Of a stretch of DNA of 55,519 nucleotides, positions 35 through 46,110 are shown piece after piece (position 1 is the first letter of the stretch; each line of letters starts with the position of its first letter). Under the pieces are notes generated by a model. The model searched no databases. It was not told the origin of the DNA and worked only from the letters and a program-made list of their open reading frames with translations. The position numbers were made by a program, and so were the translations under genes. The stretch spans positions 1 to 55,519 of the forward strand of contig JAGAWQ010000086.1 of assembly GCA_017941345.1 (NCBI GenBank), in the 5' to 3' direction. This stretch comes from Prevotella sp. Its GTDB lineage: Bacteria; Bacteroidota; Bacteroidia; Bacteroidales; Bacteroidaceae.

Positions 35-66
35 AAGTTCCGAATTTCTTCGGAACTTCTTTTTTG
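35..66 (-). terminator. Intrinsic terminator after tRNA-Val
   Basis: A 10-bp perfect stem (AAGTTCCGAA / TTCGGAACTT, 35-44 and 49-58) with a 4-nt loop is flanked by an A-run on the left and a T-run on the right. Read on the minus strand it lies directly after the tRNA and ends in a U-run. The structure is symmetric, so it could also stop plus-strand transcripts. Confidence 0.8.
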
Positions 67-141
67 TGGGCGCTGAGGGATTCGAACCCCCGACCCTCTG
101 CTTGTAAGGCAGATGCTCTAAACCAGCTGAGCTAAGCGCCC
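67..141 (-). tRNA. tRNA-Val (anticodon UAC)
   Basis: The minus strand gives a full cloverleaf. The 7-bp acceptor stem is GGGCGCT/AGCGCCC, the D-arm is GCTC...GAGC, and the anticodon stem TCTGC/GCAGA encloses the loop CTTACAA with anticodon TAC. The T-arm contains GGTTCGAATCC. The discriminator is A and CCA is not encoded. A UAC anticodon reads GUA and other GUN valine codons. A promoter box lies about 32 bp upstream and a terminator follows immediately, so it is probably a single-gene transcript. Confidence 0.95.
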
Positions 142-172
142 CTTTGTAGGTGATTTCCTCTGAAATCGCGTG

Positions 173-180
173 CAAAGGTA
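173..180 (-). promoter_or_regulatory. -7 promoter box for tRNA-Val
   Basis: TACCTTTG on the minus strand matches the Bacteroidetes -7 consensus TAnnTTTG and sits 32 bp upstream of the tRNA 5' end. No TTG -33 is present at the 19-21 bp spacing; that position is occupied by the left heptamer array (186-220). Confidence 0.6.
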
Positions 181-185
181 CAAAG

Positions 186-344
186 AAAAATGAGAAATGA
201 GAAATGAGAAATGAGAAATGTGCGTTTTGTTAACACAGTTTAACATCACACCCTCCATTTCTCATTTCTCATTCCCCATTCCTCATTCCTCACTTCTCAT
301 TTCTTTGACCTGAAGGTCAAAGCGACTTCGTCGATTACTCATTT
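186..344. repeat. Inverted heptamer arrays with double-hairpin core (element 1)
   Basis: Five near-perfect tandem heptamers of AGAAATG type (186-220) face seven heptamers of CATTTCT/CATTCCT type in strict 7-nt phase (256-304). They are separated by about 35 nt and can pair as a long hairpin. The right array is followed by a core of two hairpins: CTTTGACC-TGAA-GGTCAAAG (303-322) and CGACTTCGTCG (323-333). The element ends at the stop codon of the minus-strand gene at 335. Nearly the same core recurs at 15262-15303. I do not recognise it as a named repeat family. Confidence 0.85.
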
Positions 345-1078
345 GGCGCCCCGCGCCTTTTTGCTTCTTCCAGTTCTTTACGCAGCTGTTCGTTCTCTGC
401 TTCCATATCAGCCAGCTGGGCATTCAGCGCATCAATCTCGCCCTGCGACAGCGATTCGATGGCATCAGCATCAGCCTTTCGCTTCGACGAGGAAGTACCG
501 AAATACCACGTCAGACCCACTTCGAAGGTGATTTGCTGCAAGCGGTCCCTCAAGGCTATGCCTCCATTTCCCTCGTAGCTGTTCCAACCCAACTCGAAAT
601 TGGCAGCCAACTTCTGATTGATGCGGAAGGTATTCAGTATTCCGAAATTAATATCACTGGTATAGCTGGCCTGTGACATGTTACGCGACAGACCTGCACC
701 GATATAGGGAATGCAGTTCCAGAACCTGTAAGCGTTATGCCCCAACAGCAGCGAGCTGATGTTGAACATCACCTGCTCGTTCAGCGTCCAGTATTTGTCA
801 GCAGACACACCGTCAGCCTTAGAACCCATCTGCCAGATATTCAACTTCGTGCGCAGCGCCAAGGCAGAGGTCATCCAGCGGCCTCCCGCCAGCGAGATAC
901 CCCATCCGGTATGTCCTTCGCCACTGGGGAATTTGTAGAAAGGAGCCGCCAGCGACTTCTCCCCTACTTGATACCATGCGTTCCATACGAAGTTGGCCTG
1001 TGTAAACCATCGTCCGTCTTGAGCCATCGTCGTCAGCGGCATCAACACGATAGCAGCAATCAATAATATTTTTCTCAT
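335..1078 (-). CDS. Outer-membrane beta-barrel protein with C-terminal coiled coil
   Basis: 247 aa. It has a signal peptide (MRKILLIAAIVLMPLTTMAQ, about residues 1-20). A region of about 170 residues rich in alternating aromatic/Gly strands follows (for example WGISLAGGRW, AANFELGWNSYEG, ITFEVGLTWYFG), as in Bacteroidetes outer-membrane barrels. After about residue 200 the chain becomes a charged heptad-like helix (LNAQLADMEAENEQLRKELEEAK), a probable coiled coil, where OmpA-family proteins would carry a peptidoglycan-binding domain. It resembles the barrel half of the OmpA protein at 3485-4690 without the OmpA domain. Function unknown; a structural envelope role is inferred. The ATG start is supported by the signal peptide and the promoter at 1108-1137. 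The stop codon abuts repeat element 1. Confidence 0.75.
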   Translation of the reverse strand: MRKILLIAAIVLMPLTTMAQDGRWFTQANFVWNAWYQVGEKSLAAPFYKFPSGEGHTGWGISLAGGRWMTSALALRTKLNIWQMGSKADGVSADKYWTLNEQVMFNISSLLLGHNAYRFWNCIPYIGAGLSRNMSQASYTSDINFGILNTFRINQKLAANFELGWNSYEGNGGIALRDRLQQITFEVGLTWYFGTSSSKRKADADAIESLSQGEIDALNAQLADMEAENEQLRKELEEAKRRGAPNE

Positions 1079-2235: not shown

Positions 2236-3399
2236 TTACTTAACAATAACCTTTTTGCCGTTAACAATGTAAAGGCCCTTGGTGGTAGGCTTGCTTTGCA
2301 GACGACGGCCATCCAGTGTGTACCAAATCTCCTGGGTGTTCACCTTGTCAGCCACACGGACGTCTTCAATGCCGGATAAACCCTTCTTGTAATCGTCAGC
2401 GGTGATAATCAGCAGTTCATCAGGAGCTGAAGAATATACAGGAAGATAACACTTGTTGGCTGGAATATAAGAAATATTGCTCTTCACGAAGGCTGGTCTT
2501 CCGTCCGCTGTAACGCCCAACATACGCATATTGGCAGGTCTATAAGCCGTCACATTGCGATGAGTACCTGTCACGTCGTTGCAGTAATAGTTTCCTACCA
2601 GACGGTTATCAGGAACTTCACCAGTTGCTGAGGGAGCATACAGCGTCAACTTGTTTTCCTTAGGAGTGGAGCCAGAGCAGAGAACCAGTACCGGAGTCTG
2701 CTTGGGCACAATACCCGTAATTTCTTCGACAATAGCATATCCGGCAGTGTAGTCTACATCACTGACCGTATACAACTTAGTGGTCTCAGCAGATGCCTTG
2801 AAGGGGAAACCGGCATATAGCGTAGACCAATAAAGGTTGTTGGCAGAGGCCTTAACATCGGGCTTGATACCGAAATAGCGGTCATTATCCTGGGTAACGG
2901 GATAGATTTTCCATTCACGTCCTTCTTTGGTCGTCTCCAAATTAGGACAGAAGTATTTCTCATAACCATAGTCTTCTTCACCAGAATCGTCTGCCAAATA
3001 CTTCGTAGCGGAAAGAGTACCCTTTGTGGCAGTACCATAAAGCCAGTAATAGCCATTACCACGGTCTGCATAATTCAGCAGAAGATTTGTCTGTTCGTAG
3101 AAGTCAAGCCCCTGCCCTTCCAGGTTACAAGAATTCGCACCTATCGTCTGAACATAACAAATCGTAGCCGGATTGAAAGCCACCTTGTTCTCGAAACCCT
3201 TCAGCATATACAATGCATCCAGGTCAGCGATGACGTTACCTGCCGCAGTAGCACTAATTTCGTAAGACGCCCTTGTGTCGACAATAGAAAGATAACGTTC
3301 AGTATACCTATTCTGAACACGATAATAACCTGAACCGGATAGCTGTGCATAAGCGTATAATGGCGACAGCATCAGCATCCAAAACAAAAATCTTTTCAT
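2236..3399 (-). CDS. Secreted protein with sorting-like C-terminal tail
   Basis: 387 aa. The signal peptide is MKRFLFWMLMLSPLYAYAQ (about 1-19). The N-terminal part (GSGYYRVQNRYTERYLSI) resembles the opening of secreted Prevotella proteins that start with a short beta-trefoil/ricin-like segment, but I cannot assign a family firmly. The last 35 residues (IWYTLDGRRLQSKP...GLYIVNGKKVIVK) form the beta-hairpin tail seen on many secreted Prevotella and Porphyromonas proteins, which resembles type IX secretion sorting signals. Another copy ends the protein at 53473. No clear promoter is seen in the 85 bp upstream, which hold the terminator of the OmpA operon, so it may be expressed by read-through. 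Confidence 0.65.
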   Translation of the reverse strand: MKRFLFWMLMLSPLYAYAQLSGSGYYRVQNRYTERYLSIVDTRASYEISATAAGNVIADLDALYMLKGFENKVAFNPATICYVQTIGANSCNLEGQGLDFYEQTNLLLNYADRGNGYYWLYGTATKGTLSATKYLADDSGEEDYGYEKYFCPNLETTKEGREWKIYPVTQDNDRYFGIKPDVKASANNLYWSTLYAGFPFKASAETTKLYTVSDVDYTAGYAIVEEITGIVPKQTPVLVLCSGSTPKENKLTLYAPSATGEVPDNRLVGNYYCNDVTGTHRNVTAYRPANMRMLGVTADGRPAFVKSNISYIPANKCYLPVYSSAPDELLIITADDYKKGLSGIEDVRVADKVNTQEIWYTLDGRRLQSKPTTKGLYIVNGKKVIVK

Positions 3400-3420
3400 A
3401 TAATACCTATTGTTTCAACT

Positions 3421-3465
3421 AAAAAGAGTCTGACCTACACTTCAACCATGTATGGCCAGACTCTT
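3421..3465 (-). terminator. Terminator of the lipoprotein-OmpA operon
   Basis: A 9-bp stem (AAGAGTCTG 3424-3432 / CAGACTCTT 3457-3465) with a longer loop. On the minus strand it is followed by TTTTT. It lies 20-64 nt past the OmpA stop codon. Confidence 0.7.
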
Positions 3466-3484
3466 CGTAAAATCTTATCTTTGA

Positions 3485-4690
3485 TTACTCAGCGATACAG
3501 ATAGCTACACGGTTGTCAACCTCCTTAGCGAATGGCTGGATGGTGTCACCCTTATAGTCTACCTTAATGCGAGAAGCATCAATCTTGTACTGCTTGGTCA
3601 GAGCGTTGAATACAGACTCAGCACGCAGCTTAGACAGACGGCTGTTGATGGTAGGATTACCAGTGCCGATGTCAGCATAACCTGTTACCTCAACCTTTGC
3701 ATTGGGGTTAGCGTTCAGGTAGTCAGCAACTTCCTTCACCTTGTTGGCCTCGCTCTTAGCGATGTCAGTGCGGTTAATCTGGAAGAATACGTCACGACGG
3801 AACGGCTCCTTCTTCTCAACAACAGGCTGAGCAACAACGGGTGCGGGCTTCTCAACTACGCGCTCGACAACCTTCTCTACGACACGCTCAACGGGCTTGG
3901 GAGCCTCGATGGTGCGAGTAGTGTAGGTCTTACCCAGGTTGATTTTCACACCAGCCAGTGCATTGAAGTACCAGTCCCAGTTGTTTGCCCTCTTACCGTT
4001 GTAGCGGTCAGACAGGGTGTTGGCGTTCAGCTCGAGACCCAGGCTAACAGCGTCAGAAACCTTGAAGTCAGCAGCTACACCAGCGCGACCGAACATGCGA
4101 ACCTTTGTACCATCGTTGCAGCCCTGGAAATAGTACTTCCAGTTGTCGTTACCGGCAGCCTGATGTACAATAGCCAGGTCCTTATTCTCCCAGTTGTTGT
4201 CCTTATCCATACCCCAGGCGATGTTAGCACCTGCACCAGCGAATACGCTGAAGTTGAAGATACGGTTAGGATTGTAGCCACAGAAGAGGTTTGACAGATT
4301 GAAAGTCAGGTCAATACCAGGAGCTACATACATCCACTTAACCTTAGTTGTTCCGGCAGGAATAGGAGTACCAGCAGTAACAGTACCAGTACCTGTAGCA
4401 CCCTGAACATAAGTAGCAATCTCGTTGTAGTCTACACCAGCACGGCTCTGCCAAGCGTTAACAGCCAGACGGGCACCGAATACGGGAGTGAACTGACGAC
4501 CAACAGTAACCTGTACGTTAGGCGAGATTAAGTCCTTGAAATTAATCTCACCAAGGGTGTACTGGGCACCGCCCTGAAGTTGGATGTACCAATAAGGATT
4601 GTGTACATACTCTGTCTTAGCCTCCTGAGCTGATGCGGTGAGGGCACCGCACAGCATCAGGCAAGACAACAATACATTCTTGATTTTCAT
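3485..4690 (-). CDS. OmpA-family outer-membrane protein
   Basis: 401 aa. The signal peptide ends near ALTASAQ (about 21). Residues about 25-270 form a predicted beta-barrel. A low-complexity linker of Val/Glu/Lys/Pro repeats (VERVVEKVVERVVEK) follows at about 275-310. The C-terminal OmpA peptidoglycan-binding domain (about 315-400) contains VEVTGYAD, NSRLSKLRAESV and DNRVAI, including the conserved Asp and Arg positions that bind diaminopimelate in this family. Inferred role: tethering the outer membrane to peptidoglycan. It is second in an operon, 36 nt after the lipoprotein gene at 4727. It is not the barrel/coiled-coil gene at 335, which lacks the OmpA domain. Confidence 0.92.
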   Translation of the reverse strand: MKIKNVLLSCLMLCGALTASAQEAKTEYVHNPYWYIQLQGGAQYTLGEINFKDLISPNVQVTVGRQFTPVFGARLAVNAWQSRAGVDYNEIATYVQGATGTGTVTAGTPIPAGTTKVKWMYVAPGIDLTFNLSNLFCGYNPNRIFNFSVFAGAGANIAWGMDKDNNWENKDLAIVHQAAGNDNWKYYFQGCNDGTKVRMFGRAGVAADFKVSDAVSLGLELNANTLSDRYNGKRANNWDWYFNALAGVKINLGKTYTTRTIEAPKPVERVVEKVVERVVEKPAPVVAQPVVEKKEPFRRDVFFQINRTDIAKSEANKVKEVADYLNANPNAKVEVTGYADIGTGNPTINSRLSKLRAESVFNALTKQYKIDASRIKVDYKGDTIQPFAKEVDNRVAICIAE

Positions 4691-9110: not shown

Positions 9111-10818
9111 TCTGATTCGTACGTTTGGGAACCTCCCGACGCTTTTCCTCCTTCAGCTCGGTGCCTGCTTTCTTCGGACGCCAGTTGAAGATATCCTCCC
9201 TGTTCAGTGGGCGCACATAGTCGAACCAGGCATATTGGGGCAGGAAATACTTGTCGGGCGGTATCTGTGTCATCGGATAGAGCACACCAGAGGGCTTCTC
9301 CATCCATATCTTCTTCATCTTACGTTTCTCCAAAAACATCTTCATCAGCGGTGTTTCCGTATAGTTCAAACCAATCAGCGTGCTGTCCGACTCGTCTATC
9401 GGGTAATAGACAATGAACACGTTGTCGATGGCATGCGTCTCGCGTATCTCGCCTTTCTGGAAGAAAGCCTTCATCTCCTTTGATGCCACCTGATTGAAAT
9501 GCACCGAGTCAGCCATCTGCTCTGCTGAGAACGCCTGATTGATGACATGCGCATGGTCGATGGTGGAATCCTTCATATACACACGAATCTCCTCGCCAAA
9601 CAGCTGTTGGTTCATATTCCAGACAATAGGGTCTTTATACATCGTCATCAGCGAGTCCTTCGAGTTGTAAACCAGCGAATCGCAGACCGCCTGCACGTCC
9701 ACCCGGTACGCGCGTACCTTATTATACGCGTGTATCTTCCGATAGACAGAGTCCGTGCGGATGTTAAACGTGAAAATCTTAAACGTATCAGCATGCATAT
9801 ACAACGTGTCACGCTGAGAGTAGTCCATCACGACAGCCCGTTTAGTAGACATGGCATAGCCTGTGGAGTCGTTGTACTCACAATAGTCACCCGTCAGCAT
9901 ATTCTTGTTGAGCGAATCGGTGAAAACCACATTCCAATAGGCATAGTTGGTACCATCAGCAGCATTATGGTAAACGCTGTCACCGACGAGTGTCTTGCCG
10001 CCGTCGCGAATAACAGAGCGTCCAAACAGTTCAGACCGCTCGGTCTTCGTGTTATAATAGCCGTCTTCACTATAGATACGGCTTCCCCCGGAGGTGATGG
10101 TAGAAGGTCCCACGATATGAGCCTGTGAGGTTTGTGTGTCGTAATACAACGAGTCGGTAGTCAGAAACATCTTCTTGTCCTTCAGCTGCACATCATAATA
10201 GAAGATAGCCATCTTCGTGTCGGTATGATACTCGCCCCAGTCGGAGGTGAGCACCGACGAGCCGTCTACCAGTTTGCCGCCTTCGAAGAAGTTTCCGAAA
10301 CTATACATCCTGTCATAGTCGAGAGAGTCCGTGTACAGTGTCGACTTCCGGTGTTTCAGTATCACATTATAGCGAGCCTGTGCCAGTTGGTCGTTACCGT
10401 CATAGTAGGCATAGTCGCTCGTCAGCCGGAGCGTGTCGCCCTGTATCATCTTCACGTGTCCGAAGGCCTCAAAGGAGTTGGAGGCCTCATAGAAATGAGC
10501 GCTGTCACAATAGAGGTCCGCACCGTTATGGCGGAAATGCACGTTCCCGTGTAGCACCTGGGCGTCGCCGTTACGATACTGGTCGTAGTGCAGATTATCG
10601 GAATGTATCAGATACACCCTTTTATCCTCCGTCTTCTTACGAGGAGCACGCTTACGAGCGGGCTGGGCAGCGAAAGCGGCAAAGACGAAGAGAAATAAAA
10701 ATATAAATGAGAAATGAGAAATGAGATATGAGAAATGGAAATGAGAAATGAAGAAATGCCGATGCATCTCTAAACTCCTCCTGATATTCTCCTTATTCTT
10801 AACAACAAACTTCATCAT
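9079..10818 (-). CDS. OstA/LptA-like LPS-transport periplasmic protein
   Basis: 579 aa from the upstream ATG pair; ATG at 10767 (MHRHFF) is an alternative start. The mature part is an OstA/LptA-like beta-taco: successive units of the form 'D.L.YD......A.GNV...DGADLYCDSAHFY' (HGNVHFRHNGADLYCDSAHF, LTSDYAYYDGNDQLAQARYNV, VGDSVYHNAADGTNYAYWNV). This family bridges LPS across the periplasm between LptBFGC and LptD; the role is inferred from homology and from lptB in the same window. The hydrophobic signal region (about residues 21-38, with ISHF and LISHFSF) is encoded by CTCATTT heptamers, continuing into FIFLFLFVFAAFA. It lies 40 nt after surA and overlaps mutL by 32 bp. Confidence 0.8.
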   Translation of the reverse strand: MMKFVVKNKENIRRSLEMHRHFFISHFHFSYLISHFSFIFLFLFVFAAFAAQPARKRAPRKKTEDKRVYLIHSDNLHYDQYRNGDAQVLHGNVHFRHNGADLYCDSAHFYEASNSFEAFGHVKMIQGDTLRLTSDYAYYDGNDQLAQARYNVILKHRKSTLYTDSLDYDRMYSFGNFFEGGKLVDGSSVLTSDWGEYHTDTKMAIFYYDVQLKDKKMFLTTDSLYYDTQTSQAHIVGPSTITSGGSRIYSEDGYYNTKTERSELFGRSVIRDGGKTLVGDSVYHNAADGTNYAYWNVVFTDSLNKNMLTGDYCEYNDSTGYAMSTKRAVVMDYSQRDTLYMHADTFKIFTFNIRTDSVYRKIHAYNKVRAYRVDVQAVCDSLVYNSKDSLMTMYKDPIVWNMNQQLFGEEIRVYMKDSTIDHAHVINQAFSAEQMADSVHFNQVASKEMKAFFQKGEIRETHAIDNVFIVYYPIDESDSTLIGLNYTETPLMKMFLEKRKMKKIWMEKPSGVLYPMTQIPPDKYFLPQYAWFDYVRPLNREDIFNWRPKKAGTELKEEKRREVPKRTNQNDRRDSALTR

Positions 10819-10861
10819 TTCTCATTACTCATTACTCATTTGAGCATGAAACGCATGCTCA
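10705..10861. repeat. Inverted heptamer arrays with hairpin (element 3), overlapping the OstA-like gene
   Basis: About seven AAATGAG-type units (10705-10753, some degenerate) face CATTTCT/CATTACT units (10816-10843) across about 57 nt. The right array runs into a perfect hairpin TGAGCATG-AAACG-CATGCTCA (10841-10861) that contains the surA stop codon. The left array is translated as part of the OstA-like signal peptide. Confidence 0.8.
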
Positions 10862-13683: not shown

Positions 13684-15177
<1,494 letters not shown>

Positions 15178-15194
15178 TTAAATTTTATTGCGTG

Positions 15195-15202
15195 CAAAGG
15201 TA
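15195..15202 (-). promoter_or_regulatory. -7 promoter box for guaB
   Basis: TACCTTTG on the minus strand, 30 nt before the guaB ATG. The expected -33 position falls inside the AGTGAAG heptamer array (15211-15231) and has no TTG. The same arrangement is seen at the tRNA-Val promoter. Confidence 0.6.
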
Positions 15203-15210
15203 CAAAAAAA

Positions 15211-15333
15211 AGTGAAGAGTGAAGAGTGAAGAATTTGCTTCCGCTATTGTTTTTTTAACCATTCTTTGACAAAAGTCAAAGCGACTTCGTCGATTACTTC
15301 ATTCTTAACTCCTCATTCTTCACTCTTCACTTA
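15211..15333. repeat. Inverted heptamer arrays with double-hairpin core (element 2)
   Basis: Three perfect AGTGAAG units (15211-15231) face ATTCTTA, ACTCCTC, ATTCTTC, ACTCTTC, ACTTAGT (15301-15335). Between them lies the core TTCTTTGAC-AAAA-GTCAAAGCGACTTCGTCGATTACTTCATT (15262-15303), which matches element 1 at 301-343 almost base for base outside the hairpin loop. The array ends on the recQ stop codon (15331-15333). It fills the recQ-guaB gap. Confidence 0.88.
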
Positions 15334-17514
15334 GTTAGCCATTTCCGATATGAACTTGATGCGAACCAGACGAATCTCATCCTCTGAGCATTCCGCACCC
15401 AGCTCGTCGATGGCGGCTTCCAGCGAATCGGTGTCGCTGTCGGCAAAATAGTCGTAGATATCGTCTACATGGTCTTCGTCCATCACCTCGTCCAGGAAAT
15501 AGTCGATATTCAGCTTCGTACCGCTATAGACGATGGCCTCCACCTCGTCCAACAGCTCTTCAAATTCCAGTCCCTGAGCCGTCGCGATGTCGTCAAGGGC
15601 TATCTGACGGTCTATCGCCTGGATAATCTTCACCTTGAGGATAGACTTCTTCGCTACCGTACGCACACGGAGGTCAGCCTGACGCACTATCTCGTTTTCC
15701 TCGCAGTAGCGTTTGATTAAGTCTACAAACTCCTTCGCATAAGACTGGCGCACCTTACCCTCGCCTACTCCCTGGATATTCTTCAGTTCCTCCAGCGTCA
15801 CCGGATAGTCGGTGGCCATCTGCTCGATGCTCACATCCTGGAAGATGACGTAAGGCGGACGCTCCAGGCGTTTGCTCACCTTCTTGCGGAGGTCTTTCAG
15901 CATCGCACTCAGCGTCGGGTCGAGTGCACTTGTCCCACCCTCATGCTCTGACGGCATGTCGTAGTCCTCAGAGAACTCGTTGTCCTCAACAATCATGAAT
16001 GAGTCGGGCTTCTTCAGGAACTTCTTACCGGCAGCAGTGAGCTTCAGCAAGCCGTAGTTCTCGACATCTTTTTTCAGATAGCCGGCAATCAGTGCCTGAC
16101 GAATCACCGGGTTCCAATGTTTCTCCTCATAGTCCTCGCCGGCACCGAACATCTCATGGTCCTGGTGCTTATGAGCCAGTATCTCCTCCGTCTCACGACC
16201 TATGACAAAGTCGATGATATAGTCTGCACGGAAGTTTTCCTTCAGCGTCTGTATCGTATTGAGCACGATGACCAGCTGCTTCTCAGCCTCTATCTTCGTC
16301 TTGGGATGCAGGCAGTTGTCGCAGTTATGGCAGTTCTCCTCATGATAGTCCTCACCAAAATAGTGCAGCAGCATCTTTCTGCGGCATACCGAGGTTTCTG
16401 CGTATGCTGCCGTCTCAGCCAGCAGCTGGCGTCCGATGTCCTGCTCAGCGACGGGCTTGCCTTCCATGAACTTATCCAGTTTCTGTAAGTCTTTCTGGGC
16501 ATAGAAGGTCACACAGAGACCCTCACCGCCATCGCGTCCGGCACGTCCCGTCTCCTGATAGTAGCCTTCCAGCGACTTGGGGATGTCATAGTGGATGACA
16601 AAACGCACGTCGGGCTTGTCGATACCCATACCGAAGGCTATCGTGGCAACAATCACATCGATGCGCTCCATCAGGAAGTCATCCTGTGTCTGTGAGCGCA
16701 GCGCAGAGTCCAGTCCGGCATGATAGGCAGCCGCCTTGATGTCGTTGGCTTTCAGGATTTCCGCCAGCTCCTCCACCTTCTTTCTCGACAGGCAGTAGAT
16801 GATACCGCTCTTGTTCGGGTGCTGCTTGATGAAGCGTGTGATGTCCTTATCCACATCATTGGTCTTCGGACGTACCTCGTAATAGAGGTTGGGACGGTTG
16901 AACGAGCTCTTGAACTCAGCGGCATCCATGATGCCCAGATTCTTCTTGATGTCCGTACGCACCTTGTCGGTAGCCGTTGCCGTCAGCGCGATAACAGGTG
17001 CCTCGCCTATCTCGCTGATAATCGGACGGATACGACGGTACTCCGGACGGAAGTCATGTCCCCACTCCGAGATACAATGGGCCTCATCTACGGCATAGAA
17101 CGATATCTTGGCCTGTTTCAGAAATTCCACATTATCCTCTTTGGTCAGCGACTCAGGAGCCACATACAACAGCTTCGTCCGTCCGGCCAGTATATCAGCT
17201 TTCACCTGGTCGATAGCTGCCTTGTTGAGCGACGAGTTCAGGTAGTGGGCCGTTCCCTCGTCACTCATCGAACTGATGACATCCACCTGGTTCTTCATCA
17301 GCGCTATCAGCGGTGAGATGACAATAGCCGTGCCCTCCATCAACAACGAGGGCAACTGGTAGCATAACGACTTGCCGCCACCCGTAGGCATCAGCACAAA
17401 GGTGTCCTTGCCGTCAAGCACGTTCTGAATGATAGCCTCCTGATCGCCTTTGAACTTGTCAAAGCCAAAATGCTTCTTCAGGGCTTCTGTGAGATTCTGT
17501 TTCTTCTTTGCCAT
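15331..17514 (-). CDS. recQ: ATP-dependent DNA helicase RecQ
   Basis: 727 aa from ATG 17514 (MAKKKQNL). An upstream in-frame TTG would translate the heptamer repeat and is unlikely. It has a Walker A (MPTGGGKS), DEAH box (AVDEAHCISEWGHDFRPEY), helicase motifs V/VI (ATIAFGMGIDKPDV, YQETGRAGRDG), a RecQ zinc site (CRRKMLLHYFG...CHNCDNC), a winged-helix region and one HRDC domain (about 560-640: YVIFQDVSIEQMA). A further acidic C-terminal extension of about 80 aa follows. RecQ unwinds DNA 3'-5' in recombination repair. It lies 41 nt after clpX. Confidence 0.96.
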   Translation of the reverse strand: MAKKKQNLTEALKKHFGFDKFKGDQEAIIQNVLDGKDTFVLMPTGGGKSLCYQLPSLLMEGTAIVISPLIALMKNQVDVISSMSDEGTAHYLNSSLNKAAIDQVKADILAGRTKLLYVAPESLTKEDNVEFLKQAKISFYAVDEAHCISEWGHDFRPEYRRIRPIISEIGEAPVIALTATATDKVRTDIKKNLGIMDAAEFKSSFNRPNLYYEVRPKTNDVDKDITRFIKQHPNKSGIIYCLSRKKVEELAEILKANDIKAAAYHAGLDSALRSQTQDDFLMERIDVIVATIAFGMGIDKPDVRFVIHYDIPKSLEGYYQETGRAGRDGGEGLCVTFYAQKDLQKLDKFMEGKPVAEQDIGRQLLAETAAYAETSVCRRKMLLHYFGEDYHEENCHNCDNCLHPKTKIEAEKQLVIVLNTIQTLKENFRADYIIDFVIGRETEEILAHKHQDHEMFGAGEDYEEKHWNPVIRQALIAGYLKKDVENYGLLKLTAAGKKFLKKPDSFMIVEDNEFSEDYDMPSEHEGGTSALDPTLSAMLKDLRKKVSKRLERPPYVIFQDVSIEQMATDYPVTLEELKNIQGVGEGKVRQSYAKEFVDLIKRYCEENEIVRQADLRVRTVAKKSILKVKIIQAIDRQIALDDIATAQGLEFEELLDEVEAIVYSGTKLNIDYFLDEVMDEDHVDDIYDYFADSDTDSLEAAIDELGAECSEDEIRLVRIKFISEMAN

Positions 17515-17523
17515 AGACTTAAA

Positions 17524-17558
17524 ATAATTGATAATTGACAATTGATAATTGACAATTA
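17524..17558. repeat. Heptamer array between clpX and recQ (ATAATTG/ACAATTG type)
   Basis: ATAATTG, ATAATTG, ACAATTG, ATAATTG, ACAATTA in exact 7-nt phase. The last unit contains the clpX stop codon (17556-17558). The array fills nearly the whole 41-nt clpX-recQ spacer. Confidence 0.9.
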
Positions 17559-36475: not shown

Positions 36476-39178
36476 ATGAACGGTATAGTAGAAAGTTTTA
36501 CGAACAACCTGATAGCAGAAGATCGCTACAGGATGATTCTCGACGGTCTACAGGTGACGCTGCTGATTACGCTCTTCGCCGCCCTGCTGGGTACGCTGTT
36601 GGGCGGACTGGTGTGTTGGATGCGCATGAACCGTCGCAAGTGGCTGCGACAAACAGCCAAGGTGTATATCGAGTTGATGCGCGGCACACCTGTGCTGGTG
36701 CTGCTCATGTTGATGTACTATGTGGTGATGGCACCGATGGATGCTACGGGCATCGTGGTAGCCATAGTCACCTTTGCCATGAACACGGCGGCTTACATCA
36801 GCGAGATGCTGCGAACCACCATTCAGGGCATAGACCGCGGACAGACGGAGGCGGGTCTGGCATTGGGCTTTACGCAGCGACAGACGTTCTTCAAGATAGT
36901 GCTGCCACAGGTGGTGAAAGCGATAATGCCCGTCTATCAGGGCGAAGTGATTAGTCTGCTGAAGGGTACGAGCATTGTGGGCTACATCGCCGTAGCTGAC
37001 ATGACACGCGCCTCCGACCTGATACGCTCACGAACGTTCGATGCCTTCTTCCCCCTCATCGTGACAGCCGTCATCTATTTCCTCATGGCGTGGCTCATCG
37101 GGATGCTGCTCACATCGTTGGTGCAGCACCGCAGGGTGAAGGCCGCAGCCGCTGCCATATTGCTGGCGCTGCTGGGTATGGCCGGTTACATGTCGTCGCT
37201 TGCAAATGGCGATGCAGTGGCTACAGAGTCAGCAGGACAGGCGGACACGCCTGCGGTGTTTATGGCACTGCCGGGGAAGCGTGTCGGTGTGGTCATCGGC
37301 AGCATACAGGACATGGCCGTCACGCGGCTGGCTCCCGATGCCGACATCATGCGGCTGGCCAACACCACCGACATGCTGGCAGCTCTGGAGAACGGCAAAG
37401 TGGACGTGGCAGGCGAGGAGAACCTGTCGGTGACGTTCAACAAGGAGATAGCCGCCAAGGTAGACACGGTAAGTGCAGGTCTGCCACCGATGCCTATAGG
37501 AGCCTGCTTTGCCCTGGACAACACGCAGCTGAAGCAGGACTTCGACAGTTTCCTGGCCGACATACGCCGCGACGGCACCTATCAGGAGATTTACGACCGG
37601 TGGCGCCATGCCGACGACCCCTCTGACATAGCCATCCCCCAACAGCACGGCACGGGACAGACACTGCGCGTAGCCATCTACCCCGCCATGCCTCCCTTTA
37701 GCTTTATCAGTTCCGGCAAACCGTCGGGCTTGGAAATAGACATCCTGACGGAGTGGGCCAACAGGCGCAACCGCCAGCTGGAATACCTGACGATGGACTT
37801 CTCGTCGCAGATTCCTGCCGTGCAGACTGACAAAGTAGATATGGCCATGGGGTCCATCAGCATCACTGAGGAGCGACAGAAACAGGTACTCTTCTCCGAC
37901 GGCTACCTCGCGTCGCACATCATGCTGCTGACGCGAAAGGGCGAGGCCGCCATACTCTCTCATCCCACGCAGCCGTCAGCCACAGAGGATGACAGGAATT
38001 TCTGGCCTTGGGCAGTGGGTATCCTTATTATTATCATAGGTGGCGGCGCATGGTTTATCCTACGTCGCAAAAACGGCACTCGGACAGCGGAAGCAAATTA
38101 TTCACTCTTCACTCTTCACTCATCACTTAAAATCTCTCACCTCAAAAAGAGTTACGGTGAGCTCGACGTCTTGCGCGACATCAATACGGAAGTGCATCAC
38201 GGCGAGGTCATCTCCATCATCGGACCTTCAGGCACGGGAAAGAGCACTTTCCTGCGCTGCCTGAACCTGCTGGAACAGCCTACCAGTGGCAGCATCGTTG
38301 TCGACGGCAAGGACATCCTCGCCAAGGGCTATCCGGTGAACATACTGCGCCAGAAGATGGGCATGGTGTTCCAGTCGTTCAACCTCTTCGAGCATAAGAC
38401 GGTGCTGGAGAACGTCATCTTCGCACCCTGCCAGCTGCGTCATGAGCCCGAAGAAAAAGCACGCGAAGAGGGTCTGTCATTGCTGCGCAAGGTGGGACTG
38501 GCTGAGAAGGCCGACGTCTATCCGTCGAGTCTCTCCGGCGGACAGAAACAACGTGTGGCCATCGCTCGCGCCCTGGCCATGAAGCCCGACGTCATCCTCT
38601 TCGACGAACCCACATCAGCCCTCGACCCGACGATGGTGGGCGAGGTGCTCAGCGTCATACGCCAGTTGGCGAAAGAGGGCATGACCATGCTCATCGTCAC
38701 CCACGAGATGAAGTTTGCCCACGACGTAAGCACCCGTATCTTCTTCATGTACGACGGTTACATCCACGAGGACGGCTCGCCCGAGCAGGTCTTCGAGAAT
38801 CCTGTCCATAGCGCCACCAAGGCATTCATCCAGCGCATCCGCAAGGAGGTGTTCGAGATAGAGGGGCCCGACTTCGACTTCCTCGGCATGCACTCTACGA
38901 TGGGTGCCTTCTGCCACAAGTACGGCATTGCTGAGAAGCTGGAAACGGCAGAACGGCTGACGGACCTGATGCTCGATGACATGATGCCCCAATACCGTCC
39001 CATCACCGTACGCATCACCCACAGCGAGCAGTCAGGCGTCACCGCCCTCGACTTCATGGTGGAAAAGATGACCGCCACGCCACTGAGCGACACACAGCGC
39101 AGCGCGCTCTCTGCCCAGTGTCTACAGGTCATAGAAGAAACCACCAAGCGAGGCTTCCGCGTGAAGCTGCTCATATAA
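36476..39178 (+). CDS. One-chain amino-acid ABC transporter: permease + solute-binding + ATPase
   Basis: 900 aa. Residues about 1-225: polar amino-acid permease with the EAA loop (TEAGLALGFTQRQTFFKIVLPQ). About 260-375: solute-binding lobe 2 with its C-terminal tail (KRVGVVIGS ... AALENGKVDVAGEENLSV ... IYDRW). About 388-490: lobe 1 (LRVAIYPAMPPFSF ... MAMGSISITEERQKQVLFSDGY). A membrane helix (WPWAVGILIIIIGGGAWFIL) follows at about 510-530. About 553-800: ATPase with GPSGTGKS (near 583), LSGGQKQR (near 686) and FDEPTSALDP. A C-terminal domain of about 100 aa ends it. The lobes are in reversed order, as in a circular permutation. The join to the ATPase (about 543-551) is encoded by four heptamer repeats. 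Substrate is probably a polar amino acid. Confidence 0.88.
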   Translation: MNGIVESFTNNLIAEDRYRMILDGLQVTLLITLFAALLGTLLGGLVCWMRMNRRKWLRQTAKVYIELMRGTPVLVLLMLMYYVVMAPMDATGIVVAIVTFAMNTAAYISEMLRTTIQGIDRGQTEAGLALGFTQRQTFFKIVLPQVVKAIMPVYQGEVISLLKGTSIVGYIAVADMTRASDLIRSRTFDAFFPLIVTAVIYFLMAWLIGMLLTSLVQHRRVKAAAAAILLALLGMAGYMSSLANGDAVATESAGQADTPAVFMALPGKRVGVVIGSIQDMAVTRLAPDADIMRLANTTDMLAALENGKVDVAGEENLSVTFNKEIAAKVDTVSAGLPPMPIGACFALDNTQLKQDFDSFLADIRRDGTYQEIYDRWRHADDPSDIAIPQQHGTGQTLRVAIYPAMPPFSFISSGKPSGLEIDILTEWANRRNRQLEYLTMDFSSQIPAVQTDKVDMAMGSISITEERQKQVLFSDGYLASHIMLLTRKGEAAILSHPTQPSATEDDRNFWPWAVGILIIIIGGGAWFILRRKNGTRTAEANYSLFTLHSSLKISHLKKSYGELDVLRDINTEVHHGEVISIIGPSGTGKSTFLRCLNLLEQPTSGSIVVDGKDILAKGYPVNILRQKMGMVFQSFNLFEHKTVLENVIFAPCQLRHEPEEKAREEGLSLLRKVGLAEKADVYPSSLSGGQKQRVAIARALAMKPDVILFDEPTSALDPTMVGEVLSVIRQLAKEGMTMLIVTHEMKFAHDVSTRIFFMYDGYIHEDGSPEQVFENPVHSATKAFIQRIRKEVFEIEGPDFDFLGMHSTMGAFCHKYGIAEKLETAERLTDLMLDDMMPQYRPITVRITHSEQSGVTALDFMVEKMTATPLSDTQRSALSAQCLQVIEETTKRGFRVKLLI
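38101..38128 (+). repeat. Heptamer array at the ABC transporter domain junction (TTCACTC type)
   Basis: TTCACTC x3 then ATCACTT in exact 7-nt phase, translated as SLFTLHSSL-type linker immediately before the ATPase domain (KISHLKKSYGELDVL). The same sequence type forms repeat element 2 at 15211-15335. Confidence 0.9.
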
Positions 39179-44000: not shown

Positions 44001-44800
44001 ACATGGGAACAATGACGGGTAGCGAGCTCTGTAACCAGTTCAAGACTGATGTGCGCAGGAGCAAGACCAAGTTCGTGCTGCTGACAGACAGCGTGCTCAC
44101 GGAACAGGATATGACCGATTTGAACATCACGCTGGCTGCTGACGACTATCTGGCCAAGCCTTTCAACATGCAAGAGGCTGTCATGCGCTTCAACAAATTG
44201 CTGGGTCTGGCACCTATTGAGTTCAACCAGAACGTCATAGAAGGCAAGGAAACACGTATGCTGGAAGGTCAGAACGCCAGCATGACGACGTCTACAATGG
44301 TCTACGACGACATGGGCAGCATCAATGTCACTCCTGATGACACCACACAGGAACAGCCAGCCACCGAGGAACAACCGATGGAGAACACCACGGCGACGAT
44401 GGGCGGAGGAGCCGTGCTGGCTAAGTACTACGAAGGCAACACCATTGGCGACTACTCGATGAGCAACTTCATGGACCAGCAGCTGATGCGTAACGTAGAG
44501 CAGTTTGTGCTGCAGAACATGAGTCGTGGACAAATCAGCCTCGACGAGATGGCATCAGCAATGGGTATGGGACGCGTTCCCTTCTTCCATAAGGTACGCA
44601 GCATCACCACCAAGACGCCGGCTGAAATTGTTCGCGAACTGCGACTGAAGCATGCCTGCACACTGTTGGTGACCACCAATATCAACATCAGCGAGCTGGC
44701 CATCAATGTGGGATTCATGACGGCAGAGAACTTCACCAACATCTTCCGTGAGAAGTTTGGCATGTCACCGCTGGAGTACAGAATGAAGAATAAGAAATGA
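41051..44800 (+). CDS. Kinase-less two-component-propeller AraC regulator with pseudo-receiver
   Basis: 1249 aa, laid out like a hybrid two-component regulator but without the kinase. N-terminal signal/anchor. Residues about 30-690 are two-component propeller repeats (DSRGYVWLGTPAGLYRFDG, DQSGNLWIATNGGLQVYNP). A Y_Y_Y domain lies at about 695-775. One membrane helix (about 781-802) leads to a helix with SDELRQPM, in which Asp 834 replaces the phospho-accepting His. No HATPase domain follows. The receiver (about 933-1055) has LIDNN instead of LVDDN, and Lys 982 in place of the phospho-accepting Asp (ICKQDM); the late Lys (AKPF) remains. An acidic linker and an AraC DNA-binding domain (about 1150-1249) complete it. 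It is probably a phosphorylation-independent membrane regulator. Signal and targets unknown. Confidence 0.88.
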   Translation: MKTLRKTLLVLMLALPLAAAGVYLFKTLDARNGLTISQINCVMKDSRGYVWLGTPAGLYRFDGYTFHNFQCNSQDGSSLPDSYIISIQETMEGTLLVQTAAGFCLYHPQTENFERDMKQAFGRMGIEGQPNVVYIDSHKNVWASIPNKGVVAYNMQQQTSYEFSYTNDAHGIPQGTICSIGECRDGAVLVYNDGKIVCCDIMHQQHTVWQSDFLARQGLRNTNTLKMFADQMDNIWVYGQGTLMIYNKNTNEWNTTVGNQLGLTGVSVDHSVNGMAGDRNGNIWIGTDRTGLIRTDVNSHEMETIQPYGANSNQRTQDVIGIQSVYIDDTDLLWIGTEKSGLAFYGSNIYKFQSQINGDITALAQDENGKIWYGTGDKGVIDYDGPLASQKVSAMTTTTDGSLWVGSKQNGLTRIKGGTSTFYSVARDSMKTLIDDHINALCGDQSGNLWIATNGGLQVYNPKMNTFSSYTRENGMLNTNNITSLFYGKNNKLLIGTAEGLIILNLSNREKTLLTGNSTNLSTFTNNYITQVYEDSRGLIWVGTREGINILNIDNDELSYITEKDGLCNNSVCGIAEDKNHSIWITTSNGVSRVVVQRNHEDGTFNYGLYNYDISDGLQSNEFNMGAILTKKDGNVLFGGLYGVNWVRRDNKDDQEALPRVMLTQLFVGEEEILTGIEYDGNTILPQALNESNRIELNNNQSSFTIKFAAGNYNQGERLQFMYWMEGLDNDWRNGDALLHGVKFHNLGSGTYTLHVKAVSADGAVSNQERTLEITIDRPWWLSWWMLSVYVIIAIIILVVWRYGVKKFKAVWKSKKTIIEELKRQREEIKLTSDELRQPMARMTTIIGNMAEKEQSLEGREQLNSLHFQMLQVITRISEMQSTLENPEKKAESTAKDKLELNDRGEVALTAASTREFAVDVRSLKVDEQSKKFSVILIDNNHEFLNFMDIHLHDVYNFHTYDNIKDALPDIETLNADLVICKQDMGTMTGSELCNQFKTDVRRSKTKFVLLTDSVLTEQDMTDLNITLAADDYLAKPFNMQEAVMRFNKLLGLAPIEFNQNVIEGKETRMLEGQNASMTTSTMVYDDMGSINVTPDDTTQEQPATEEQPMENTTATMGGGAVLAKYYEGNTIGDYSMSNFMDQQLMRNVEQFVLQNMSRGQISLDEMASAMGMGRVPFFHKVRSITTKTPAEIVRELRLKHACTLLVTTNINISELAINVGFMTAENFTNIFREKFGMSPLEYRMKNKK

Positions 44801-44835
44801 AAGGAATGAAAGGAATGAAAGAAATGAAAGGGATG
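44797..44835 (+). repeat. 9-bp tandem repeat encoding the MKG start of the HKD protein
   Basis: Four units of ATGAAAGGA type followed by ATG, read as MKGMKGMKEMKGM. Each unit contains an ATG, so several in-frame starts are available. The first overlaps the stop of the preceding gene (ATGA). Confidence 0.8.
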
Positions 44836-46110
44836 AGCCGTAGCGCATTTCTTCATTTGACATTTACATTGCTCATTTCTCATTTCTCATTGCTCATTTC
44901 TGTTGCACAGACCAGCGACTCGCTGATAGTACAGACACTGCGCCAGAGCAATGTTCGTTTCTCTCACGACAACAGCGTGACGCTATTGCTGTCGGGTCAG
45001 GAGAAGTTCGATGACATGTTCCGTGCCATCCGACAGGCCAAAAGCAGCATCCACCTGGAATATTTCAACTTCCGAAACGACTCGATAGCATCGCTGCTGT
45101 TTGACATCCTACGTGAGAAGCGTCGCGAGGGCATCGAGGTTCGTGCGATGTTCGACGGATTTGGCAACGACTCCAACAACCAGCCGCTGAAGAAACGTCA
45201 CCTTGTGTCGCTACGTGCTGACAGCATCGACATTGTGGAATACTCGCCCATCCGTTTTCCTTGGGTCAACCATATCTTTGGGCGTGACCACCGTAAGATT
45301 GTCGTCATCGACGGACAGATAGGCTATACCGGTGGGATGAACGTAGCTGACTATTATATTAAAGGTACGGAGCAGGTTGGCGAGTGGCGCGATATGCACT
45401 GTCGCATAGAGGGCGATGCCGTCAACGAGCTACAAGCTATTTTCTTGCGGATATGGAACCGCACTACAGGCCAGCATGTCAGCGGTGCGAAGTATTTTCG
45501 CGGAGGCACACTGACACGATTCGAAGGACTGAAGCCCGACACCACCTATACCCGAGGGCGCAAGATGGTGGGCATCATCAACCGCGAGCCTGGCATCACG
45601 CCAAAAATTATGCGGAAATTCTACGTGAATGCCATCAACCAGGCTCGTGACTCCATCCATATCATCAACCCCTACTTTACCCTGATACCCACTGTCACAC
45701 GAGCGCTGACACGCGCCATCCGTCGGGGTGTGAAGGTAGAGATTATGCTGTCGTCGAAGAGTGATATCCCACTGACACCCGACTGTGCCCTCTACCAAGC
45801 CCGGAAGCTGATGAAGCGTGGCGCACGGGTATGGCTCTATAAGCCCGGATTCCATCACTCCAAGATTATGATGGTCGACGGACTGTACTGCACGGTGGGC
45901 AGCACCAATCTCGATGCACGTAGCCTGAAATGTGATTTCGAAGAGAATGCGGTGATTATCGACAAGGCAACCACACGCGAACTGGATGATATGTTCTGGC
46001 GCGACAAGCAGAAGAGCTTTGAGATGACCGATGAGACATGGGACGAGTTTCGCACAGGGTGGCAGAAATTTCGCGGATGGTTCTCACACCTGTTGCAGCC
46101 TTTCCTCTAA
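44797..46110 (+). CDS. Secreted phospholipase D / cardiolipin synthase-like protein
   Basis: 437 aa. Two HKD motifs: HRKIVVIDG (H165, K167, D172) within FGRDHRK...GGMNVADYY, and HSKIMMVDG near 354-362 within GFHHSK...GSTNLDARS, both complete. The family makes cardiolipin from phosphatidylglycerol or hydrolyses phospholipids. It lacks the two N-terminal membrane helices usual for ClsA and has a signal peptide instead (about 17-38, ending ISVAQTS), so the enzyme is probably periplasmic. That hydrophobic segment is encoded by CTCATT heptamers, and the preceding MKG repeat by a 9-bp tandem repeat. It overlaps the propeller regulator by 4 nt. Confidence 0.88.
   Translation: MKGMKGMKEMKGMSRSAFLHLTFTLLISHFSLLISVAQTSDSLIVQTLRQSNVRFSHDNSVTLLLSGQEKFDDMFRAIRQAKSSIHLEYFNFRNDSIASLLFDILREKRREGIEVRAMFDGFGNDSNNQPLKKRHLVSLRADSIDIVEYSPIRFPWVNHIFGRDHRKIVVIDGQIGYTGGMNVADYYIKGTEQVGEWRDMHCRIEGDAVNELQAIFLRIWNRTTGQHVSGAKYFRGGTLTRFEGLKPDTTYTRGRKMVGIINREPGITPKIMRKFYVNAINQARDSIHIINPYFTLIPTVTRALTRAIRRGVKVEIMLSSKSDIPLTPDCALYQARKLMKRGARVWLYKPGFHHSKIMMVDGLYCTVGSTNLDARSLKCDFEENAVIIDKATTRELDDMFWRDKQKSFEMTDETWDEFRTGWQKFRGWFSHLLQPFL
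44846..44901 (+). repeat. Heptamer array encoding the HKD protein signal peptide (TCTCATT type)
   Basis: GCTCATT, TCTCATT, TCTCATT, GCTCATT (44871-44898) in exact 7-nt phase, preceded by looser CATTT units. Translated as LLISHFSLLIS, the hydrophobic core of the signal peptide. The unit is the same as in elements 1 and 3. Confidence 0.9.

Follow-up and report, generated by a model that had tools for sequence, protein, structure and literature searches.

Introduction

Two loci about 15 kb apart in a contig of Prevotella sp. (JAGAWQ010000086.1 of GenBank assembly GCA_017941345.1; its whole stretch of 55,519 nt is called the window below) share a short double-hairpin core, and each core is bordered by heptamer arrays that face each other. 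This layout raises two questions: whether core and arrays form one composite repeat, as a first-pass annotation of the DNA had proposed, and how the core came to lie at both places. As described below, the core belongs to a real family of double-hairpin nano-elements, which is found in Prevotella and in at least one other family of the order, and the heptamer arrays are fast-changing host repeats that are independent of the element and not part of its repeat unit. We lean towards reading the core as a mobile nano-element that is non-autonomous and is moved in trans by single-strand transposition, with the arrays standing apart from it.

Structure and Covariation of the Element

The 24-nt core GTCAAAGCGACTTCGTCGATTACT is identical at 316-339 and 15275-15298 of the window, and no match to it at up to three mismatches turned up when the window was shuffled 100 times, which places the two copies beyond chance. 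The loop differs between the copies (TGAA versus AAAA) and the stems are unchanged, just as the first-pass annotation had described. The two elements are as follows.

303..337, plus strand: element copy 1, 35 nt, with the exact core, both hairpins in the DNA fold and a covariance model match at 301-337 (E 1.6e-12 for the window); hairpin 1 at 303-322, hairpin 2 at 323-333, tail ATTA at 334-337, target TT at 301-302; boundary uncertain by one C (303 or 338)
15264..15296, plus strand: element copy 2, 33 nt, with the exact core and a model match at 15262-15296 (E 6.5e-13); hairpin 1 at 15264-15281, hairpin 2 at 15282-15292, tail ATTA at 15293-15296, target TT at 15262-15263

Read on one strand, the element follows the target TT and consists of hairpin 1 between CTT and AAG, hairpin 2 between CG and CG, and the tail RTNA. 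Its size is mostly 27-45 nt; lengths in the 100-genome set run from 26 to 52, the extremes being possibly misparsed. Of 121 distinct sites read, 108 could be resolved into hairpin 1 followed by the 17-mer GCGACTTCGTCGATTAC, with TTC at the left in 98 of those, and the other 13 are unparsed, some resembling decayed copies and some chance matches in coding DNA. TTC and a stem of at least 4 stand beside the 17-mer at 98/121 sites, against a mean of 0.25 and a maximum of 4 with shuffled flanks. Most listed sites show a C after RTNA, to which the search pattern itself contributed.

The stem letters vary in pairs, and CTT, AAGCG and the tail are constant. Hairpin 1 occurs as CTTTGAC/GTCAAAG, CTTCG/CGAAG, CTTGC/GCAAG, CTTGG/CCAAG, CTTTTA/TAAAAG, CTTTCA/TGAAAG and other forms, and hairpin 2 as CGAC/GTCG, CGC/GCG, CGGC/GCCG and CGAGT/ACTCG. 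The 108 parsed sites had been picked for a stem of at least 4, a selection from which a test with the anchors only, carried out on 398 kb of genome G027, is free: without any pairing requirement it gave 37 matches, against 0.2 in shuffles. The three variable pairs in these matches are formed in 37/37, 36/37 and 35/37, while redealing the partners lowers the means to 12.7, 14.5 and 21.3. Likewise, when 14 typed variants, the rows chosen by hand, are aligned without gaps, three pairs vary on both sides, every cell pairs, and the covariation score is unreached by shuffles. In structure-only scans of G069, G426, G027 and G167, TTC precedes a hairpin 1 ending in AAG in 53/59 matches and is found in 0/30 of the remaining ones.

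A subfamily has both hairpins and an AGCG tail in place of ATTA (L115:5581-5609, L110:2428-2458, L108:3524-3554, and L078:1340-1368).

Precise Insertion at TT

Insertion of the element is precise, with no target bases duplicated save one ambiguous C, and interrupted and intact versions of the same site both exist. A transposase element is present twice in G138, once with a 29-nt insert between GACGGTTC and TCTGATC and once intact; G095 has the intact form of the site too, as does G082 with one gap. A second case is a locus of G097, which holds an interrupted and an intact repeat differing by 30 nt, the latter being intact in G034 too. Directly to the left of the element, TT is found at 86/100 non-redundant sites.

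The boundary was judged from arrays whose junction base is not C. At 3/4 informative sites the element is followed by a base that belongs to the array, and the alternative boundary fits 0. This phase suggests that the C is part of the element, which is therefore placed as C...A after TT. The trinucleotide AAG precedes hairpin 2, yet it doubles as the 3′ side of hairpin 1, and at the 4 informative sites the boundary favours TT over TTC as the target. An IS608-style arrangement, with AAG as guide and TTC as target, was favoured at first and was no longer preferred once the array phase had pointed to the C as part of the element. Tandem copies are present in G027, which fits repeated insertion at the same TT.

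The window's own copies can be compared with their counterparts. Copy 2 is absent from the corresponding loci of 29/29 relatives, in 27 of which the start of guaB still adjoins recQ, and G226 has, by eye, surroundings like those of copy 2 without the element. Copy 1 has a counterpart in the same array of G282, two heptamers away.

Hairpin loops were also considered as a preferred target, prompted by a T-loop of transfer-messenger RNA (tmRNA), a site resembling a tRNA T-arm, and GGTCG-TTC-CGACC. The control did not support this idea, a stem of at least 4 being found around TTC at 13/54 non-redundant element sites versus 22% of 1843 control TTC sites (loops up to 10). Six genomes (L024, L125, L130, L140, L173, and L219) have an apparent second tmRNA 3′ end, called by eye, with the element in the T-loop between GGGTTC and GACTCCC.

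Distribution

The first-pass annotation had made its case depend on further core copies and on compensatory stem changes. The latter are those described above, and the former exist as well: the window's own genome (2.05 Mb, 60% complete) has the core at five places with up to three mismatches, and a structure scan of 376 kb of it found four elements. Within the genus Prevotella, the 24-mer with up to three mismatches occurs in 8/150 genomes and the 17-mer with up to one mismatch in 45/398, the reversed pattern giving seven matches in total by hand count as a control. The covariance model has matches in 107/150 genus genomes at E<=0.1 and in 72/150 at E<=1e-4; the number of matches per genome is held down by a ceiling of 48 scored candidates and by stricter filters, and some matches belong to the AGCG-tailed subfamily. 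At the level of the order, 8/295 genomes have a match, namely the window's own genome, G426, and six with single matches that lack hairpin 1 by eye. G426 comes from another family of the order and has ten matches of the same architecture. A search for the exact 24-mer across named genomes returned 13 contigs (five Prevotella or Prevotellaceae metagenome-assembled genomes). Viral contigs gave no exact match to the 24-mer or to an 18-mer, and a phage origin is thus without support.

G027 is rich in copies, with 37 in 398 of about 2300 kb; the tiles of G027, G167, G069, and G426 were chosen on contigs holding 17-mer matches, which biases such densities upward. Eight of these 37 lie inside predicted open reading frames (ORFs) and 29 are intergenic, the nearest gene end being a 3′ end for 18 and a 5′ end for 11. 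No description of the element was found in the open-licence literature of PMC, searched by its letters and for heptamer repeats or Prevotella.

Gene Neighborhood and Heptamer Arrays

The neighbours of copy 1 are a 247-aa ORF and a tRNA-Val gene, and those of copy 2 are recQ and guaB; all four lie on the minus strand.

66..141, minus strand: tRNA-Val (tac), found by ARAGORN and as Rfam tRNA
172..184, minus strand: promoter-like TTTGTACCTTTGC upstream of tRNA-Val, from the sequence
188..220, no strand: left array of site 1, AAATGAG x 4.7 (TRF), pairing with the right array
256..304, no strand: right array of site 1, CATTTCT-like (TRF), broken by the element, with one more unit after it
335..1078, minus strand: 247-aa ORF with no Pfam match; stop codon (335-337) inside the ATTA tail of copy 1
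13684..15165, minus strand: guaB, IMP dehydrogenase (Pfam IMPDH)
15194..15206, minus strand: promoter-like TTTGTACCTTTGC upstream of guaB, from the sequence
15211..15232, no strand: left array of site 2, AGTGAAG x 3.1 (TRF), forming a sense-strand hairpin followed by U8
15297..15331, no strand: right array of site 2 (TRF), adjoining the recQ stop codon (15331-15333)
15331..17541, minus strand: recQ-type helicase (Pfam DEAD, RQC, RecQ_Zn_bind, and HRDC)

The string GCAAAGGTACAAA is present at 172-184 and 15194-15206; we take GCAAAGGTACAAA/TTTGTACCTTTGC to be a Bacteroidetes promoter. An Rfam scan at E up to 1 placed tRNA alone above its gathering score, and matches of microRNA families over the arrays stayed below theirs. 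Both cores had been said to sit exactly on the stop codon of a minus-strand gene. Here, the tail of copy 1 does hold such a codon, and in copy 2 it is the right array that touches that of recQ; for the family this is no rule, as the positions of the G027 copies indicate.

The facing arrays with different units at the two cores, another point of the first-pass annotation, were recovered by TRF. Period 7 is the commonest tandem repeat in the 376 kb of the same genome (40/127 arrays, many touching stop or start codons), and 52 merged arrays of period 7, 14, or 21 were counted there. In sense-strand RNA the facing arrays fold into long hairpins, with a z-score of -5.5 and U8 after the stem at site 2, and a z-score of -9.2 and U5 only at site 1. 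Such arrays would act as terminators between the stop codon of one gene and the promoter of the next, a role inferred from these folds. A simple terminator scan had no match at site 2, because it counts loops of 3-8 only. Among relatives, the recQ-guaB site has either facing arrays (AATTAAG or AGTGAAA type), a single array, or no array at all.

Several other observations concern the arrays. Where the recQ-guaB spacer has none (L045, L048, L069, and L073), a different large hairpin, TTGCGTGCAAA...TTTGCACGCAA, surrounds the guaB promoter. An array at 38101-38127 of the window, inside an ORF at 36476-39178 (plus strand), has the extra letters AGCGGAAGCAAATT, beyond the heptamers, in common with the left arm of site 2 (15211-15245). 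Two further pairs of facing arrays without the element are found at 10690-10840 and 44783-44904 of the window, one of which overlaps a predicted ORF end. In G081, three elements stand in series with TTCAATCC-type heptamers between each (L013:1430-1720).

Mechanism and Alternative Explanations

IS608 is not known to duplicate its target. Precise joins, a short target that is kept, no duplicated bases, and hairpins at the ends are all hallmarks of single-strand transposition, and fit an HUH-type mechanism for the element. According to this scheme, the element would move as folded single-stranded DNA, a HUH single-strand transposase of the IS200/IS605 or repetitive extragenic palindromic (REP) type would cut and join it in trans, and tandem copies would arise via repeated insertion at one TT. 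TnpA-REP acts on folded single-strand substrates (PMC8266576).

The enzyme is the difficult part of this scheme. Y1_Tnp (PF01797) is found together with the wider family, in 52/72 carriers versus 35/78 non-carriers, and the difference lies with a long class of about 280 aa (23/72 versus 7/78, against 29/72 versus 28/78 for other Y1_Tnp), these statistics ignoring kinship. The covariance model gave 8 matches in 24 long-class loci and one in 33 loci of other Y1_Tnp, a suggestive result, but one that includes hand-chosen loci. A number of points weigh against trans-mobilization. The element has no enzyme tied to it, and Y1_Tnp is without a match in the copy-bearing G000, G027, G035, G162, and G226, all of them incomplete genomes. 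The 17-mer subtype is not associated with Y1_Tnp either (11/19 carriers versus 76/131 others, p = 1). The long class was assigned by hand from open-frame lengths and includes a few proteins of 203-239 aa, and elements also sit in the ends of long-class transposases, which could by itself create the association. The offset of two heptamers in G282 is explained by array turnover as well as by movement, the empty site of the window's copy 2 in G226 comes from a reading by eye where automatic alignment gave no clean placement, and one shuffle of G069 produced two AAG matches in the structure-only scan. Mobility is thus deduced from comparison of sequences, and movement itself was not observed.

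Two candidate partners were rejected. A REP-associated tyrosine transposase (RAYT) was considered in L104, where the copies near Y1_Tnp genes proved to be one insertion in a transposase end and one copy 8 kb off. An autonomous version with the common hairpin 2 had L126 as its sole candidate, which adjoins a tRNA-like 3′ end and in which the 3 kb read hold no transposase.

Of the other explanations, the one nearest to trans-mobilization is that the element is the cognate repeat of the Bacteroidetes TnpA-Y1 subclass 2.6, a REP in the wide sense whose enzyme would be the class of about 280 aa; the 'atypical structures' of this subclass have copies elsewhere in Bacteroidetes genomes (PMC6006769). 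The long-class protein of G138 shows by eye NHVH and YIHQNP, motifs common to the subclass, and the long class is seen more often in carriers of the wider family than in the other genomes. However, the long proteins exceed the 179 aa listed for the subclass, the copy-rich G027 has no Y1_Tnp match, and in the loci read the ends of the long class carry other, GGGGACGG-like sequences, into which the element is inserted, so that we regard this identity as unlikely while giving it real weight. The G138 locus has two near-identical genes for a 289-aa tyrosine transposase (L104:555-1424 and 2949-3818) with GGGGACGG ends, one end being interrupted by the element; these ends fit the GGGGWSAS motif of tyrosine transposases flanked by terminal inverted repeats (TIRs; PMC3733652).

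Replication template switching would do without any transposase, polymerase errors copying hairpins from place to place. Hairpins and arrays do favour slippage, and no enzyme was found, but constant ends, a constant TT target, and precise joins across many genomes make this explanation improbable. It is harder still to believe in structure-specific site recombination, as by an integron integrase on folded attC-type sites, which would account for a shape conserved over sequence and for the lack of target duplication: no gene cassette lies between copies in the loci read (integrases themselves were not searched for). A single-strand route of the IS91 type is opposed by Y2_Tnp, for which 23/23 genus genomes, including 11 that carry the 17-mer subtype, gave no match; a single match was found in G426. 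As for the proposal that core and heptamer arms make a single regulatory or mobile composite unit, both window copies do lie between facing arrays, and the element is in phase within 7-bp arrays at 21/100 non-redundant sites versus 64/4046 control sites of TT followed by C. The other 79/100 sites are out of such phase, arrays are abundant without the core and are present without it at orthologous sites in relatives, and the core occurs without an array at, for example, L010, L011, L024, and L131. Array-free elements and element-free arrays refute the composite as a rule, and we give it very little credence. On our reading, core and arrays are found together because the arrays are TT-rich, tolerant landing sites.

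Significance

A bolder reading, which we hold somewhat less likely than not, is that this is a bacterial mobile element near the minimum conceivable size, recognized mainly as a shape (two hairpins with letters that can vary in pairs, few fixed letters, and a TT target), which may reach tens of copies or more, as with the 37 in G027, with no dedicated transposase there as far as searched, and which would favour fast-evolving heptamer terminators. The element would rank with the smallest mobile elements that bacteria have, and the natural diversity of its stems would serve as a mutational scan, already made, of the features that a single-strand transposase reads. The contrast between G027 and the genomes with the candidate class makes testable how palindromic repeats without a known transposase spread, a long-open question. 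Element and putative heptamer terminator, otherwise liable to be treated as one feature, can be told apart.

Comparison with Known Systems

The IS200/IS605 family and its derivatives resemble the element in precise insertion 3′ of a short motif kept at the left end and in end hairpins (IS608; PMC5934647). The element shares with them the absence of target-site duplication, the fixed left motif, and terminal or subterminal hairpins, but it codes for no Y1 transposase of its own, being a gene-less sequence of mostly 27-45 nt in all with two adjacent hairpins and TT as target. The first-pass annotation had set the core apart from REP sequences and from miniature inverted-repeat transposable elements (MITEs), a distinction that holds for the features tested. 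As to the latter, the element has neither TIRs nor target-site duplication. GTAG REPs with RAYT/TnpA-REP, including subclass 2.6, are likewise short, mostly intergenic, palindromic, present in many copies and possibly moved in trans by Y1 enzymes (PMC3733652; PMC6006769; PMC8266576). The element differs in having no GTAG tag, in its two hairpins that both covary freely, and in that, in the loci read, it flanks no enzyme as that enzyme's own repeat. In place of an unpaired GTAG or GTGG foot, the other strand starts with TAAY or TCAT in the variants read.

The double-hairpin or repetitive hairpin elements of mitochondria are alike in layout only, with adjacent hairpins, compensating stems, intergenic copies and a mechanism described as unknown, whereas the genome and the sequences are different (PMC2800124). 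For the arrays, Xanthomonas has intergenic convergent 7-bp arrays of GGGAATC, with 70 and 75 convergent pairs (PMC4692102), and intergenic arrays of TAACTGA are known too, as are heptamer arrays in some Bacteroidetes (PMC4679880). One main unit is present there, whereas here many A/T-rich units occur and change between species at one site. The CGTC REPs, or RPEs, are short palindromic repeats without a known dedicated transposase, also in Bacteroidetes; each has a single 8-9 bp stem together with a CGTC tag that is unpaired and a tail resembling CCA, whereas the element has two stems and its CGTC letters are paired (PMC3733652). They are nevertheless a precedent for repeats that spread without a known transposase (PMC3733652).
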